Origin: Sediminibacterium roseum
GTDB lineage: Bacteria; Bacteroidota; Bacteroidia; Chitinophagales; Chitinophagaceae
DNA length: 64,000 bases
Assembly (NCBI RefSeq): GCF_009939005.1
Contig: NZ_JAACJS010000015.1
Span: 1,056,325-1,120,324 of the forward strand
Reading direction: 5' to 3'
The position numbers were made by a program, and so were the translations under genes. The number at the start of each line of letters is the position of its first letter. Within the stretch, counting starts at the first letter, position 1. Shown here one piece after another: positions 82-5,156 of the stretch. The notes under the pieces are model-generated. The model was not told the DNA's origin, did no database searches, and worked only from the letters and a program-made list of their open reading frames with translations.

Positions 82-579
82 ATGACATTCAAAGAAATTG
101 CAAATAAGATTACTGGTATCAGTTTCCCTGTATTTGGTGTTTCCTGGACACCTACCAAACCGGAAATAGAAATTGCTCGTAAAGTGATCGCTTTTCTGGA
201 AGACCGTAGAGTTCTATATGTTGTCTATCAACTGGAAACACCACAACACTGTGTGGACTCAGTACTTAAAATCAGGGAATTTCTTACTACTACTTTGTTT
301 GAGATCAATGCAGATTCAGAACTTAGCGATGTACTTAAAGCAATGCGCAGCGCATGTAGAACGTTTTTGAATGAGGTTCAGAACGCTCATTATTCAAAAG
401 ATAGTAAAAGACTAGAATTGAATCAATTGGGTTTAGGAGGAGAAATTCATTTCTTTAACGCGATGGGAGTATTAAGGGCACTGACGGGTGTTTTGATCGC
501 TAAGGTCTTAGTGATGCACGGGATTGACTGCGAGAGTGAATTGTTATCAATAATTCCATTTACAGAAGACGATTCTTAG
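82..579 (+). CDS. Small conserved-type protein of unknown function, first gene of the AT-rich cassette
   Basis: A 165-residue soluble protein with no signal peptide or membrane segment. The start is placed at the ATG at 82 because the reading frame further up has only a TTG at 61. The N-terminal part reads KEIANKITGISFPVFGVSW, followed by FLEDRRVLY and a mostly helical C-terminus. From memory it resembles proteins catalogued as DUF6650, but I could not verify this and no biochemical role is known to me. It lies 77 bases before the NACHT gene on the same strand in equally AT-rich DNA, so it is probably co-transcribed and may be an accessory factor of the cassette. Confidence 0.7.
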   Translation: MTFKEIANKITGISFPVFGVSWTPTKPEIEIARKVIAFLEDRRVLYVVYQLETPQHCVDSVLKIREFLTTTLFEINADSELSDVLKAMRSACRTFLNEVQNAHYSKDSKRLELNQLGLGGEIHFFNAMGVLRALTGVLIAKVLVMHGIDCESELLSIIPFTEDDS

Positions 580-656
580 CAGACATATCAGTTACAAGCA
601 CAATCTTATTAATCCAAAGCCAACGCTTAATAGTAACAATTCAAACATTTACTTTG

Positions 657-2390
657 ATGCAAGAGAATTGGGACAAAATAAAAATTCACATACACAAAGA
701 AACCAAAAAAGCAATAGCTGGCAGGTTTCACTGTAATGAGCTGGATCTAATAGAAGTCTTTCGAAAAGTTTTGATATTTCCTATTAACAATCCAGCGATC
801 AGACTCAATGGCCTTGAAACACGAGTAATGCATGCGCTGGACAAGGTGTTTAACAATGGACAAACAAAAGCTGATAACCATTCATATTTTCTGGAGATAG
901 CGAAGATTGAACCATTTCTGCGAAAAATTTTGTACTTGATTAATCCGGAAAGATATCAACAGCTTGCAGCCACAAGATCGGGATTAAATTCATTTGTAAA
1001 AGAATTAGGACTCAACTCAGGCAATATCAAACTCGCAATGGCTAGTGCATCAAATTATCAGAACAATCCTCAGCTTCTCGACAAGATCATTGAAGTTTAT
1101 CATCTTAGAAATATCGAGAGCCATGAATGCGATGAATGGACAAGCGCCGAACTACATTCTCATATTCAGAACGCTCTGATCGTTTGTCTTTTTACTATTG
1201 ACAAGCACCTTCAACAAATTTCTCAAGTGTTAGACCCTTACTTCGCTAACCAGGGAAAAGATTTTACAGATTACCTGAACATGGTGATAAATACGTTCGA
1301 AGAAAAAATGAAACGGTTTATACATATTCGGGGAAAAGAAGATTTCAAGCTGTCTTCGTCGATAGCGATTGAACTATCTGCTCCGGAAAAAGATCAGGAA
1401 AGGGCTGAACGAAAGGGGAATATATTAGATCTAAGAAATAATGAAATACCTGAAAAAAGGATGGCGATATGGGCGGACGCAGGCATGGGCAAAACAACAA
1501 CTCTGGAATATCTATCATATTTAGATTCGAAAGACAAACTAACAGATAACCAAAAACCACTTCCTGTCTATCTTGCATTAGGGCTCCTAACCGACAAGAA
1601 TGTAACAATCAAACAAAGTATACTGATTAAAATTGGGGTTGATGCAGAATACGGAGATCGATTACTTTCAGAAGGGAAAATTCATCTTTTTTTAGACGGA
1701 CTAAATGAGATTCCTAAAGATGATAATTTTTCGCTTCGCACCATCCGACATCGAGAAATTCAAAATCTACTTACACAATATCAGGAAACCTTCATTATCT
1801 TATCTAACCGGCCACAGGACATAAACGATTTCAGAAATATCCCTGTATTCATGCTTCAAAAAATGGACCGGGATCAGGTAAGAGATTTTGTCACAAAAAA
1901 CACTTCGGACAATCCAAATATTGCCGGCCAGATTTTAACCGCAATTGATGAAGATGAGCGGCTTTTCCGAATTATCAAGACGCCGCTGATGTTATCCCGG
2001 TTAATTGAAATCTCACGGGTAATGGGTGAGCTTCCCAAAAGTGAAGGAGAGATCATCAGGTCATTTATTAATTCACTTTATCGTCGAGAAAGAGAGGAAA
2101 AGAAAGATGCAAATTTCGATGTAAAAAAAATTGACCGGCTTTTGCGCTATCTAGGCCATATAACCTTGGAAAAATATGGAACGAATTCAGGGATCTCAGA
2201 AGATGAAGTGTTAAACCACTTCGTCGAATGCAAAACGAAATATGGTTTTGAAATTGACACCATATATGTACTCGATACCGTTACGCAACTAAATATTCTG
2301 GAAAGAAATGGTACTCAATACACTTTTGCTCACCAAGCTTACCAGGATTATTTTCATTCACAAGAAGAAAAGGCTATTGCAAATCTATGA
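657..2390 (+). CDS. NACHT-domain STAND NTPase with N-terminal HEPN-like RNxxxH motif
   Basis: A 577-residue signal-transduction NTPase. The start is the ATG at 657; a TTG lies just before it. Residues 1-200 are helical and contain YHLRNIESHE, an R-x4-H motif (R151, H156) with Asn after Arg and a long helix after His, as in HEPN RNases. The NACHT core follows: Walker A ADAGMGKTT around 273-281, Walker B IHLFLDGLNEIP around 342-353, and a sensor-like IILSNRP around 380-386. A winged-helix-like region ends in FAHQAYQDYF, where helical repeats usually begin in NACHT proteins; here the gene stops. Its TGA overlaps the next ATG (ATGA), implying translational coupling. NACHT proteins of bacteria often act in antiphage defence; that role here is inferred. 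The HEPN assignment rests on one motif. Confidence 0.85.
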   Translation: MQENWDKIKIHIHKETKKAIAGRFHCNELDLIEVFRKVLIFPINNPAIRLNGLETRVMHALDKVFNNGQTKADNHSYFLEIAKIEPFLRKILYLINPERYQQLAATRSGLNSFVKELGLNSGNIKLAMASASNYQNNPQLLDKIIEVYHLRNIESHECDEWTSAELHSHIQNALIVCLFTIDKHLQQISQVLDPYFANQGKDFTDYLNMVINTFEEKMKRFIHIRGKEDFKLSSSIAIELSAPEKDQERAERKGNILDLRNNEIPEKRMAIWADAGMGKTTTLEYLSYLDSKDKLTDNQKPLPVYLALGLLTDKNVTIKQSILIKIGVDAEYGDRLLSEGKIHLFLDGLNEIPKDDNFSLRTIRHREIQNLLTQYQETFIILSNRPQDINDFRNIPVFMLQKMDRDQVRDFVTKNTSDNPNIAGQILTAIDEDERLFRIIKTPLMLSRLIEISRVMGELPKSEGEIIRSFINSLYRREREEKKDANFDVKKIDRLLRYLGHITLEKYGTNSGISEDEVLNHFVECKTKYGFEIDTIYVLDTVTQLNILERNGTQYTFAHQAYQDYFHSQEEKAIANL

Positions 2391-3880
2391 TGGCCGATCT
2401 CCATATCAAAGCTGTGCAGGAAAAATACTATAACAGTATTAAGTATTTCTATCACACACTTCCACCCGATAAAAGACCGGAATTCATTAAAACAATTGCC
2501 GAAGAAAATATTTTTCTTGCCTCCCAATGTGTGTTAACAGGCCAGGAAGACGTTGGTCTGGAAATTCAGTTAAAGAAAATTGCATTAGACAAGGCTCAAC
2601 ATTTCTCTAATGCCAGTCAGTCAGCACACGGATTTCTCGCACTAGCGGAATTCGACTGCTTTGAAGACATCCTAACGTTGCTATCGCAAGTAACCACCGC
2701 TAAAAGAATATACAGTCAGGTCTTTCATCGGATTCTTGCCAATGCAGATCAAAGTGTATTTTTTAAATTTCTCGAAATCTGTGACAAATTAAAGCTCCCA
2801 CATTTAGTCCAATATGCAATTTCATCTTACAATGGTGCTGTCAGAGTGGATTCTGTTAATCGTCAAGTTCTTAAAAATATGTTCACAGATTTTTTGGCGA
2901 ATACTCATTACGGAACTTTAAGAGTGATGCTCGAGAAGTTTTCAATAGCCGACGATTATTTGTATATTATGCAATCAGATATTCAAACAGAAGTAAATAA
3001 AATACTAAATGTAAAAAAATATACTGCAATTAATTTAGCATACTCAATTGTGGCGGCTTACAACGCCTACGATGTGTTTTCAAAAAGTTTTTTTATACGA
3101 AAATTTACAGGCACAATCGGTATTAAAGGTATCTTGACAGCCATCCGCATGGTTGATGAAAAAAATGTAGCCGACATACAGCGGATTAACAAAAAACTCG
3201 CAGATCTTTTATCTAGTGTCGATGGAATTAACAACGGAAAAGAAAATAAAAAATCGATTAAATTAATCAAGATATTTTTTAAAAAAGGAGGTTCGGAATA
3301 TCTAGAAAATAACGATTATCAATTATTTCTTAAATATCAAGATGTTATCAGATTAAACCAACCCAATATCAAGGAGATGTTGGGGAAACGTGAGCGTTTT
3401 ACTTTTTTAGGAACAGAGGTGGCTGAATCTGATAACGAAGAATTTCAAAAAATTGTATCAGACTGCGACATTAATATTTTAAATTCAGAACTATCGCAGC
3501 CACACGAAATTCTGTCAGCGATATTCCTTCAATATTTCAAATCAAAAAGTTCGCTATCAATAGAGCTTTTAATTGGTCTTCTTTTCAGCTCTTTTAATAT
3601 CAGTTTCCAGGATATAAGTAAAGCAATGCGTCGATATGCCTTCACAGGTGGAGTTCTTGAAATTAGAAAATATGGAGTTTATATTCATTGTGATACATTT
3701 CAAACAACACAACCTTTATTTATTCCTAAAAAATCATTTACCGTGAAAGACGCGCCTAACCTTGGTGAGCTACGGTTCGCTCACGATTTAAAGTTCCGTA
3801 TTGTGAGTATAGATATTAGAAAGTTTACAATTCAAATCGCTCCTATATCAAAGCTTTCTTCAAACATGATAATGGTATAA
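2387..3880 (+). CDS. Helical-repeat-like protein coupled to the NACHT gene
   Basis: A 497-residue protein, no signal peptide. Most of it (about 1-400) is strongly helical, with repeat-like segments such as the stretches around EENIFLASQCVLTG and FFKFLEICDKLKL, the kind of region that normally forms the sensor C-terminus of a NACHT/STAND protein. The last 100 residues are beta-rich and may form a small OB-like fold; this is a guess. The gene starts inside the NACHT stop codon (ATGA, second Met at 2390), so both products are probably made in matched amounts. The simplest reading is that the sensor half of an ancestral STAND protein is encoded as a separate subunit. I recognise no named family. 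A sequencing frameshift splitting one gene is less likely, given the clean overlap. Confidence 0.75.
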   Translation: MMADLHIKAVQEKYYNSIKYFYHTLPPDKRPEFIKTIAEENIFLASQCVLTGQEDVGLEIQLKKIALDKAQHFSNASQSAHGFLALAEFDCFEDILTLLSQVTTAKRIYSQVFHRILANADQSVFFKFLEICDKLKLPHLVQYAISSYNGAVRVDSVNRQVLKNMFTDFLANTHYGTLRVMLEKFSIADDYLYIMQSDIQTEVNKILNVKKYTAINLAYSIVAAYNAYDVFSKSFFIRKFTGTIGIKGILTAIRMVDEKNVADIQRINKKLADLLSSVDGINNGKENKKSIKLIKIFFKKGGSEYLENNDYQLFLKYQDVIRLNQPNIKEMLGKRERFTFLGTEVAESDNEEFQKIVSDCDINILNSELSQPHEILSAIFLQYFKSKSSLSIELLIGLLFSSFNISFQDISKAMRRYAFTGGVLEIRKYGVYIHCDTFQTTQPLFIPKKSFTVKDAPNLGELRFAHDLKFRIVSIDIRKFTIQIAPISKLSSNMIMV

Positions 3881-3927
3881 TTTTCAATTGGGAGTAAATT
3901 AAATAGGTAAGAATATAAAAATAAATT

Positions 3928-4860
3928 ATGACCCTACAGAACATCACTGATATAGTATCTTCCCAAATTCAAATGGTGCTAGATGGACAGGAAAGTGAGT
4001 ATCCTAAACTGGATTTCAAGCGCCAGTGGTATAATCTTTTTGACGAGCTATCAATAAACGAATTTTTAAAAGACAGTTCGGCAATGGCAAACTCGCCGGG
4101 TCTGGACGGCTTTATAGTAATAGGTTTTGATCAAAAGCAAAAAGATTTTCAAAAAGCAAATTTCACCGATTGCGGTCTACGTGATGAAAATGAATTGACA
4201 GGATTAATAAACAGGCGAGTTGATCGGGTTTTTCACATTTCCCACTATCCAATTCAATTTAAAGGTACTACTTTGAGTGTATTACATATACCGCCATCAT
4301 TTGATAAACCGCACGTTATCAGGAATTATAAAACAAAAAAAGGAGAAGAACAACAGCATCGTGTATTTACAAAGAGCGGAAGTAACACTAAATTGGCCAC
4401 AAAATATGATTTTGATTTCATCGCTTTTGACCGGGCCAACCATATTCCCGAATACGACCTACAGCTGAGTTTCTCTCCGGTATCTTACGGAGCTAGCTTT
4501 ATCCAGCATGATAATACAGCAGTAATTCAATTAACTATGTCAATTGAAAACACCGGCAGAAGGGCTGTGTCTATTCACGAAATAATATTAACTTTTGAAA
4601 ACAAACCGAGTAAACCATTTGAGTTTGTTTCGACCTCATCAGCCGACAACAAATACAATTCATTAATTAAGGTTAGCAATATTATCATTCCTCCCGGCCA
4701 CATTCAGCTTATAACAGACCTTACTTTTAAATCAATCGATAGGTACGCGCCAACAGTAATTACATTTTTGTCACAGCTTAGTTTGTTCCCTGAGATAACA
4801 GCAATCATAAAACTGACTAGTGGATCTGAAATAAAGACGCGTGTAAACGTTATTTCGTAA
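3928..4860 (+). CDS. AlbA_2 (Schlafen-type) domain protein
   Basis: A 310-residue soluble protein. Residues about 20-150 match the AlbA_2 putative nucleic-acid-binding domain found in Schlafen-like proteins: YPKLDFKRQW near the start, a helix ending in FLKDSSAMANS, a GFIVIGFDQ strand, and the closing VFTKSGSNTKLATKYDFDFI, equivalent to the usual R-x-G-x-x-T-x-x-A segment. Residues about 155-310 form an unassigned beta-rich domain. It follows the repeat protein by 47 bases in the same orientation and composition, and is the last gene before the terminator at 4951. AlbA_2 proteins recur in mobile and defence-linked loci; nucleic acid or tRNA binding is a family-level expectation, not shown here. 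Confidence 0.8.
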   Translation: MTLQNITDIVSSQIQMVLDGQESEYPKLDFKRQWYNLFDELSINEFLKDSSAMANSPGLDGFIVIGFDQKQKDFQKANFTDCGLRDENELTGLINRRVDRVFHISHYPIQFKGTTLSVLHIPPSFDKPHVIRNYKTKKGEEQQHRVFTKSGSNTKLATKYDFDFIAFDRANHIPEYDLQLSFSPVSYGASFIQHDNTAVIQLTMSIENTGRRAVSIHEIILTFENKPSKPFEFVSTSSADNKYNSLIKVSNIIIPPGHIQLITDLTFKSIDRYAPTVITFLSQLSLFPEITAIIKLTSGSEIKTRVNVIS

Positions 4861-4950
4861 CATTCCTTCCGCTGTCAATGCAATCGGTTTTTGCACATAT
4901 GCACAAAATCCAGTCGTAAGGCCAATATGTATTTTCTTGAGAAAATCATG

Positions 4951-4983
4951 AAAACGCTTGCTTAAAATTTAAGCAAGCGTTTT
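4951..4983 (+). terminator. Terminator hairpin closing the NACHT cassette
   Basis: A perfect 16-base inverted repeat: left arm 4951-4966, right arm 4968-4983, one unpaired base between. The right arm ends in TTTT and the left begins with AAAA, so it can terminate in both directions. It lies 90 bases after the AlbA_2 gene. Confidence 0.8.
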
Positions 4984-5131
4984 CGGAAAAATAAAAACAT
5001 GATTTTCAAAAACAAACTTCTCATAACAAGTTGTTTTTCAATTCATAAGGCGGTAAAATTGGGGTATGGATATTGGCCAATAATTTCAGATGAGCAACGA
5101 ATTCCTGGGATAATGGACGCGTTTGGTCTAC

Positions 5132-5156
5132 AAACCCGCTCTTGAGCGGGTTTTTT
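5132..5156 (+). terminator. Rho-independent terminator
   Basis: A 10-base stem (5132-5141 with 5144-5153), a two-base loop and a run of six T on the + strand. It is a second stop for transcription leaving the cassette to the left; in the other direction its T tract is weak. Confidence 0.75.

Follow-up and report, generated by a model that had tools for sequence, protein, structure and literature searches.

A split HEPN-NACHT gene pair as a probable two-gene NLR-like defence module of Sediminibacterium roseum

Introduction

Proteins that join a HEPN domain to a STAND ATPase were catalogued in 2013 by Anantharaman et al. (PMC3710099), where the Swt1-like row of Table 1 lists fusions of HEPN with STAND-ATPase, TPR and S1 and notes such proteins as mostly active, and where HEPN-STAND proteins with cold-shock-like OB domains or ends are also mentioned. 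A second arrangement, according to a passage of PMC8195603, is that of STAND pairs in which the inactive member carries HEPN or GT4. Here we analyse a stretch of 64,000 nucleotides from the genome of the Bacteroidota member Sediminibacterium roseum (contig NZ_JAACJS010000015.1, positions 1,056,325 to 1,120,324; hereafter the window), which begins with four plus-strand genes, numbered 1 to 4, of which gene 2 encodes a HEPN-like domain with a NACHT NTPase and gene 3 a separate partner protein. An original prediction, made from the DNA letters alone, had taken the four genes for a single candidate defence system not described so far. Judged from sequence comparison, the conserved unit appears instead to be a two-gene split NLR-like HEPN-NACHT pair, and genes 2 and 3 probably constitute an NLR-like defence module carried as cargo of a mobile element.

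Results

One genome for each of 84,980 species was scanned with a five-row profile, which gave at least 50 loci (not a census), and the 20 best of these by coverage and E-value (L023-L042) were taken as the gene 2 relatives. They span cyanobacteria, Bacillota, Bacteroidota and gammaproteobacteria, and the nearest to gene 2 among the matches listed is cyanobacterial (52% identical). The neighbour counts cover these 20 loci; L043-L072 were matched for the most part in NACHT, and L032, L034, L035 and L036 were taken as the same loci as L013, L014, L016 and L015, respectively. The contigs of L033 and L035 stop at gene 2, and these two loci were set aside; in all 18 informative loci that remain, a leave-one-locus-out hidden Markov model (HMM) of the gene 3 N-terminus detects a gene-3-like segment behind gene 2 (E ≤ 3.1e-10). 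With the same HMM no other open reading frame (ORF) did better than 0.12 in the relatives' loci or than 4.1 in the window. The sequences of L024 and L039 are almost the same (98.8% identity), and the test of L039 had L024 in its seed, so the 18 loci correspond to about 17 independent ones. The segment is a separate gene in 15 of the 18 loci and fused to gene 2 in the other three (L025, L032 and L036), giving proteins of 1035-1608 residues, and a short overlap or a very short gap between the two genes recurs in L023, L024, L026 and L030 (with the L030 start inferred at 3118). A tree was built without L033, L035, L039, L041 and L042, in which 5 of 13 inner branches are unsupported.

Because the N-terminal part of gene 3 and the region that follows NACHT in the fused relatives are homologous, gene 3 can be read as the separately made sensor half of an NLR-like protein; the earlier view of it as a split-off repeat partner is supported. 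In two of the loci with separate genes, L028 (8733-9761) and L034 (8757-9785), a gene for a YhcG nuclease (DUF1016, PD-(D/E)XK) stands between genes 2 and 3, and in L023 (5155-6195) one lies upstream of gene 2; the L034 copy was assigned with Pfam on L014, and the L028 copy through its blastp matches to those of L034 (2e-48) and L023 (7e-70). We also observed that in L014 the gene 2 relative is preceded, at a distance of about 100 bp, by a gene for a protein of 1037 residues whose N-terminus is a cold-shock domain (L014:7177-10290).

Gene 2 matches Pfam NACHT at 2.9e-7 (30.9 bits, cut-off 26.7), and the Walker A and B residues G276, M277, G278, K279, T281, D347, N350 and E351 are invariant in all 20 alignment rows, the window included. 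The AlphaFold2 model of the whole protein (predicted local distance difference test, pLDDT, 83.9) has, over residues 196-577, its best match in NLRC4 (Z 28.3, 330 residues, 3.4 Å), followed by NLRP3 (Z 26.8) and NOD2 (Z 25.6), and NLRC4 was also found when the gene 2 profile was compared with PDB sequences (3.3e-5). With its NACHT domain and both Walker motifs, gene 2 is a NACHT/NLR-like STAND NTPase. The single-chain order of effector, NACHT and sensor is absent here, the sensor part being separate in the window as in most relatives; the domain-level NACHT assignment stands despite the split, as an NLR in split form.

The region upstream of the NACHT domain, in which the original prediction had noticed an RNxxxH motif, carries R151, N152 and H156 in all 18 full-length N-termini, the window included, at a mean column identity of 34%, so that the motif is not a matter of chance (the count excludes L041 and L042, which have no full N-terminus, L039, and the distant L017 and L018). 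Both the motif and its position before a NACHT NTPase are upheld, and R151-N-x3-H156 conforms to the Rx4-6H motif given for the HEPN superfamily in Table 1 of PMC3710099. Folded alone, the N-terminus gave an AlphaFold2 model with pLDDT 86.2 and a predicted TM-score of 0.86, for which Foldseek placed HEPN structures (toxins) at ranks 1-4 with E-values that are not significant (0.33-0.52). VIA-align also placed HEPN structures on top, 11 of the 15 best entries being HEPN by title or by the PMC3710099 table (Z 5.4-6.7). Single members match weakly to the Pfam families Abi_2 (0.0011) and HEPN_RiboL-PSP (0.0011), and NCBIfam gave nothing relevant on the N-termini. The four remaining entries among the 15 best of VIA-align (1wty, Csm6 6tug, 6m6w and 7bxo) are presumably HEPN as well. 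The fold comparison alone would be insufficient; together with the invariant motif and the scattered weak matches to HEPN families, we consider it very probable that the N-terminus of gene 2 is a HEPN domain.

Gene 3 had nothing over a cut-off in Pfam, and no NTPase domain was detected in it. Its relatives differ in their C-terminal end: the L023 partner carries S1, exactly at the Pfam cut-off (2.2e-4) and matching ribosomal S1 in the PDB at 4.9e-9, and the L034 partner carries a weaker S1 (0.007, below the cut-off, as measured on L014). The C-terminus of the window's gene 3 aligns with this S1 region of L023 and L034, and hhalign gives it S1 at P 0.006 but with a probability of 6%. PPR stands over the Pfam cut-off in the partners of L030 (7.9e-29), L031 (3.9e-6), L037 (3.2e-8) and L040 (1.1e-8). 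The L030 partner (L030:3118-4737) shows eight PPR-matching units with a spacing of 32 residues (PPR_3, 7.9e-29), an array of a kind that, to our knowledge, appears unusual in bacteria.

Table 1. Features of the four-gene locus (window positions)
Feature	Position	Strand	Description	Basis
Gene 1	82-579	+	165 aa, DUF6650 protein	Pfam PF20355
Gene 2	657-2390	+	577 aa, HEPN-like domain and NACHT NTPase	Pfam NACHT, alignment, AlphaFold2 model
Gene 2, residues 1-203	657-1265	+	Helical HEPN-like effector domain	Motif, AlphaFold2, structure ranking
Gene 2, R151 to H156	1107-1124	+	Motif RNIESH	Sequence and alignment
Gene 2, Walker A	1473-1499	+	ADAGMGKTT, K279 at 1491-1493	
Gene 2, Walker B	1692-1709	+	LDGLNE, with D347 and E351	Sequence and alignment
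Gene 3	2387-3880	+	497 aa, split-off solenoid partner	Gene-3-like segment 3' of gene 2 in relatives
Gene 3, C-terminal stretch	3620-3859	+	Alignable with S1 region of L023/L034; own S1 not significant	
Gene 4	3928-4860	+	310 aa, SLFN_AlbA_2 protein	Pfam PF04326
Hairpin 3' of gene 4	5132-5153	+	Terminator-like	Terminator scan

The layout of four plus-strand genes with small gaps and an overlap is as predicted (Table 1), with a gap of 77 bp between genes 1 and 2, a 4-bp ATGA overlap between genes 2 and 3 and a gap of 47 bp between genes 3 and 4; an alternative TTG start of gene 2 is possible at 654. Gene 1, called a small unknown protein before, is a real ORF and belongs to Pfam DUF6650 (2.2e-12, 47.6 bits, cut-off 27), and gene 4 is the AlbA_2 protein it was said to be (SLFN_AlbA_2, 1.4e-11, 45.4 bits, cut-off 25.3). 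In PADLOC, gene 1 had no match and gene 4 matched the candidate PDC-S50 at 8.8e-7, over part of the profile only.

The proposal that the four genes form one system is not supported, and of the co-occurrence expected for them only that of genes 2 and 3 was found. Homologues of gene 1 or gene 4 (blastp, E ≤ 0.01) lie beside gene 2 in none of the 20 loci, which show at least 1 kb upstream of gene 2 in 19 cases and at least 1 kb downstream of gene 3 in only 8; as the contigs are short, this negative result is solid for gene 1 but only modest for gene 4. Ten flanking genes taken from six of the gene-2 loci gave neither SLFN_AlbA_2 nor DUF6650 in Pfam. Conversely, genes 2 and 3 are absent from six DUF6650 loci (four of the 13 plasmid records with DUF6650 and two other genomes), where the best match to gene 2 was a BTAD regulator (E 0.13), and two loci with gene 4 homologues (L119 and L120) are without genes 1-3. 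DUF6650 was found in 3 of 296 genomes of the phylum and gene 4 in 3 of 248 genomes, the own genome included in both counts; gene 4 had no match in plasmids and none that was confirmed in viral contigs.

Genes 1 and 4 therefore look like separate cargo, or passengers, and each may be a defence gene by itself. DUF6650 is named by DefensePredictor among the domains newly implicated in phage defence (in a passage of PMC13092281), so that a defence role of gene 1 on its own is plausible, and relevant to gene 4 is the statement in PMC12839542 that systems linked to Schlafen can work against phages as RNases. The neighbours of DUF6650 seem varied: on a Klebsiella plasmid an HNH-like stretch, recognised by eye, precedes the homologue in the same ORF (L105:5605-6393), and on a Sinorhizobium plasmid the homologue lies between a 'nucleotide-binding protein' and a SEFIR protein (L106:5081-7144).

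The four-gene locus has a G+C content of 34-38%, compared with 48.3% (standard deviation 2.0 per kb) in positions 8001-64000 of the window, in a host genome of 4.5 Mb in 15 contigs. An ORF of unknown function (L002:11717-12085), ending at window position 85, shares an ATGA overlap with the start of gene 1. Mobilisation genes (relaxase, coupling protein and MobC) lie within 8 kb to the left of the window, and within 12 kb there are DUF932, RadC, MobC, relaxase, coupling protein and a serine-recombinase ORF (L002:10124-11245), for which Pfam gives no resolvase domain; tRNA genes were not found in L002, the stretch left of the window. Because mobilisation genes adjoin on the left, the locus looks like low-GC cargo beside a mobilisable element, and an accessory, mobile location is supported. 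A candidate further defence cluster (L124:9768-14558) lies close to these mobilisation genes, some 16-21 kb to the left of the window, and comprises a D12 DNA methyltransferase, a metallophosphoesterase with winged helix-turn-helix, an ORC-CDC6-like NTPase and a protein matching CARF6 of PADLOC at 7.2e-102.

Strong terminators had been proposed at the end of the locus, of which one plus-strand site downstream of gene 4 remains (Table 1). In the strong 16-pair hairpin at 4950-4984 (z -6.7 for 4930-4995) it is the minus strand that carries the T-rich tail, and the three terminator-like sites in the scanned 6.2 kb are not above the shuffle mean of 4.4.

Gene 2 was found at E ≤ 1e-10 in 9 of 298 genomes (own included), several of them through the NACHT part alone, and in 25 of 395 genomes of the phylum, with a full match in the own genome only and the NACHT part in the rest. 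Gene 3 was found in 3 of 296 genomes of the order, own included, and had no match in plasmid records.

Discussion

We interpret genes 2 and 3 as probably being a two-gene NLR-like defence module carried by a mobile element. What we observe is the gene content, the domain assignments, the invariant catalytic-type residues and the pairing across phyla. In the mechanism that we propose, gene 2 would be the effector-plus-switch subunit, with a HEPN-type RNase domain and a NACHT ATPase with helical and winged-helix parts, and gene 3 would supply the C-terminal sensor half as a protein of its own, coupled to gene 2 in translation and having solenoid repeats and perhaps an S1-like RNA-binding end. 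The two proteins would form a complex that is inactive at rest and becomes active in a partner-dependent manner when gene 3 binds an infection cue, which may lead to nucleotide exchange and oligomerisation of NACHT; this would join the HEPN domains as active RNase dimers, whose cleavage of RNA would halt the infected cell by growth arrest or an abortive outcome. S1 and PPR domains usually bind RNA, and because the variable end of the partner is S1 or PPR in several relatives, our best guess for the cue is RNA or the state of translation or the ribosome.

A number of results count against this interpretation. The structural Z-scores for HEPN are modest, 6.8 at best, with unrelated helical bundles reaching 5.3. 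The Abi_2 match weakens to 0.17 on N-termini alone, the best Pfam match among the N-termini of the 18 members is Terminase_2 (4.7e-4), none of the HEPN families in Pfam is matched by the N-terminus of the window's gene 2, and the N-terminal profile run against PDB sequences gave no HEPN and three matches at chance level. The short row L042 has K in place of R151, and the distant NACHT branch of L017 and L018 has the spacing RN-x2-H instead of RN-x3-H, so that not all relatives need be active. For the S1-like end of the window's gene 3, the own-genome S1 HMM gave 3.7 bits against 3.1 for the best of 200 shuffles, which is not significant, and L024, L026, L031 and other partners had no S1 over the cut-off in Pfam. 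Gene 2 had no match in phage records, one distant match, to its NACHT part, in viral contigs, and in 19 plasmid records matches of NACHT type that were partial and stayed below 80% coverage throughout. Finally, no model of PADLOC-DB 2.0.0 matched gene 2 or gene 3 at E ≤ 1; the systems of PADLOC were accordingly rejected as an identity for the pair.

HEPN domains frequently serve as toxins encoded beside a partner gene, and with the coupled, overlapping arrangement of genes 2 and 3 this invites an account in which control is of the toxin-antitoxin kind, gene 3 restraining the HEPN RNase of gene 2 and its loss, not a sensed cue, triggering firing. We regard this as unlikely, since it would make the NACHT switch superfluous and since gene 3 is fused behind NACHT, in the position of an NLR sensor, in 3 of 18 relatives. 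Those fused proteins could also suggest that the split is an artefact or a recent decay of one long STAND protein, an explanation with hardly any probability left given that two separate genes are the rule (15 of 18 relatives, from four phyla) and that the short overlap or gap recurs; an assembly artefact in particular was rejected because the split recurs.

A single four-gene defence operon, with the DUF6650 protein as regulator or sensor and the AlbA_2 protein as nucleic-acid binder or second RNase, would fit the common strand, the short gaps, the shared low G+C content (0.34-0.38) and the recent implication of DUF6650 in phage defence (PMC13092281), but it is improbable in view of the missing homologues of genes 1 and 4 at all 20 gene-2 loci, even though gene 4 could have been seen at just 8 of them, and of the missing pair at the six DUF6650 and two gene-4-homologue loci. 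Finally, an accessory switch for stress or RNA metabolism, rather than for phage defence, would agree with the lack of any known system in PADLOC; the rare, patchy distribution and the mobile-element setting, which farther to the left includes a methyltransferase and a CARF protein, make it decidedly unlikely. The two-gene NLR-like defence module is the reading that we prefer.

More tentatively, and with more doubt than confidence, we suggest a family of two-protein bacterial NLRs in which the separate partner is an interchangeable RNA reader (S1 or PPR arrays) and the switch fires an RNase, an RNA-triggered, RNA-cutting immunity whose sensing modules are swapped as separate genes. If the two-gene reading holds, an NLR-like switch with sensor and effector on separate, translationally coupled proteins in four bacterial phyla would allow sensing and killing to be dissected and swapped separately, and the PPR and S1 partners make the question of whether bacterial NLRs sense RNA directly testable.

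Among described systems, animal NLRs (NLRC4, NLRP3 and NOD2) have the NACHT-to-winged-helix fold in common with gene 2 and differ in their effector and sensor domains, the sensor being here on a second chain. The bNACHT proteins (bNACHT25 and others; PMC12169576) are likewise defence proteins with a central NACHT, an N-terminal effector and a C-terminal sensing region; bNACHT25 and bNACHT32 carry N-terminal PD-(D/E)XK DNase and NCH1 domains, unlike the HEPN-like domain of gene 2, and the word HEPN does not occur in the main text of that paper. The HEPN toxins of HEPN-MNT pairs are among the best structural neighbours of the gene 2 N-terminus, but their partner is a nucleotidyltransferase antitoxin, whereas here there is a NACHT switch. 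The paired STAND proteins of PMC8195603 also employ more than one protein and a HEPN effector; as described in that passage, their HEPN sits on the STAND member with eroded NTP-binding motifs, whereas here it is on the intact NACHT protein, with a partner in which no NTPase is detected.

The closest class is that of the HEPN-STAND-TPR-S1 proteins (PMC3710099), which comprises HEPN, STAND NTPase, repeats and S1; the pair and its relatives seem to have the same domain set, with the C-terminal S1 clear in L023 and not significant in the window. Compared by table entry, the members of that class are fusions, whereas here there are two coupled genes and the partner ends in S1, PPR or neither. The label 'undescribed' of the original prediction is consequently too wide for the domain combination and can be kept for the split pair, of which the literature excerpts searched for HEPN with NACHT and S1 or PPR contained no description. 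As far as these sources go, the single-chain HEPN-STAND-TPR-S1 proteins have been known since 2013, and what is new is the division into two coupled genes, with a partner protein that varies in its RNA-binding part.

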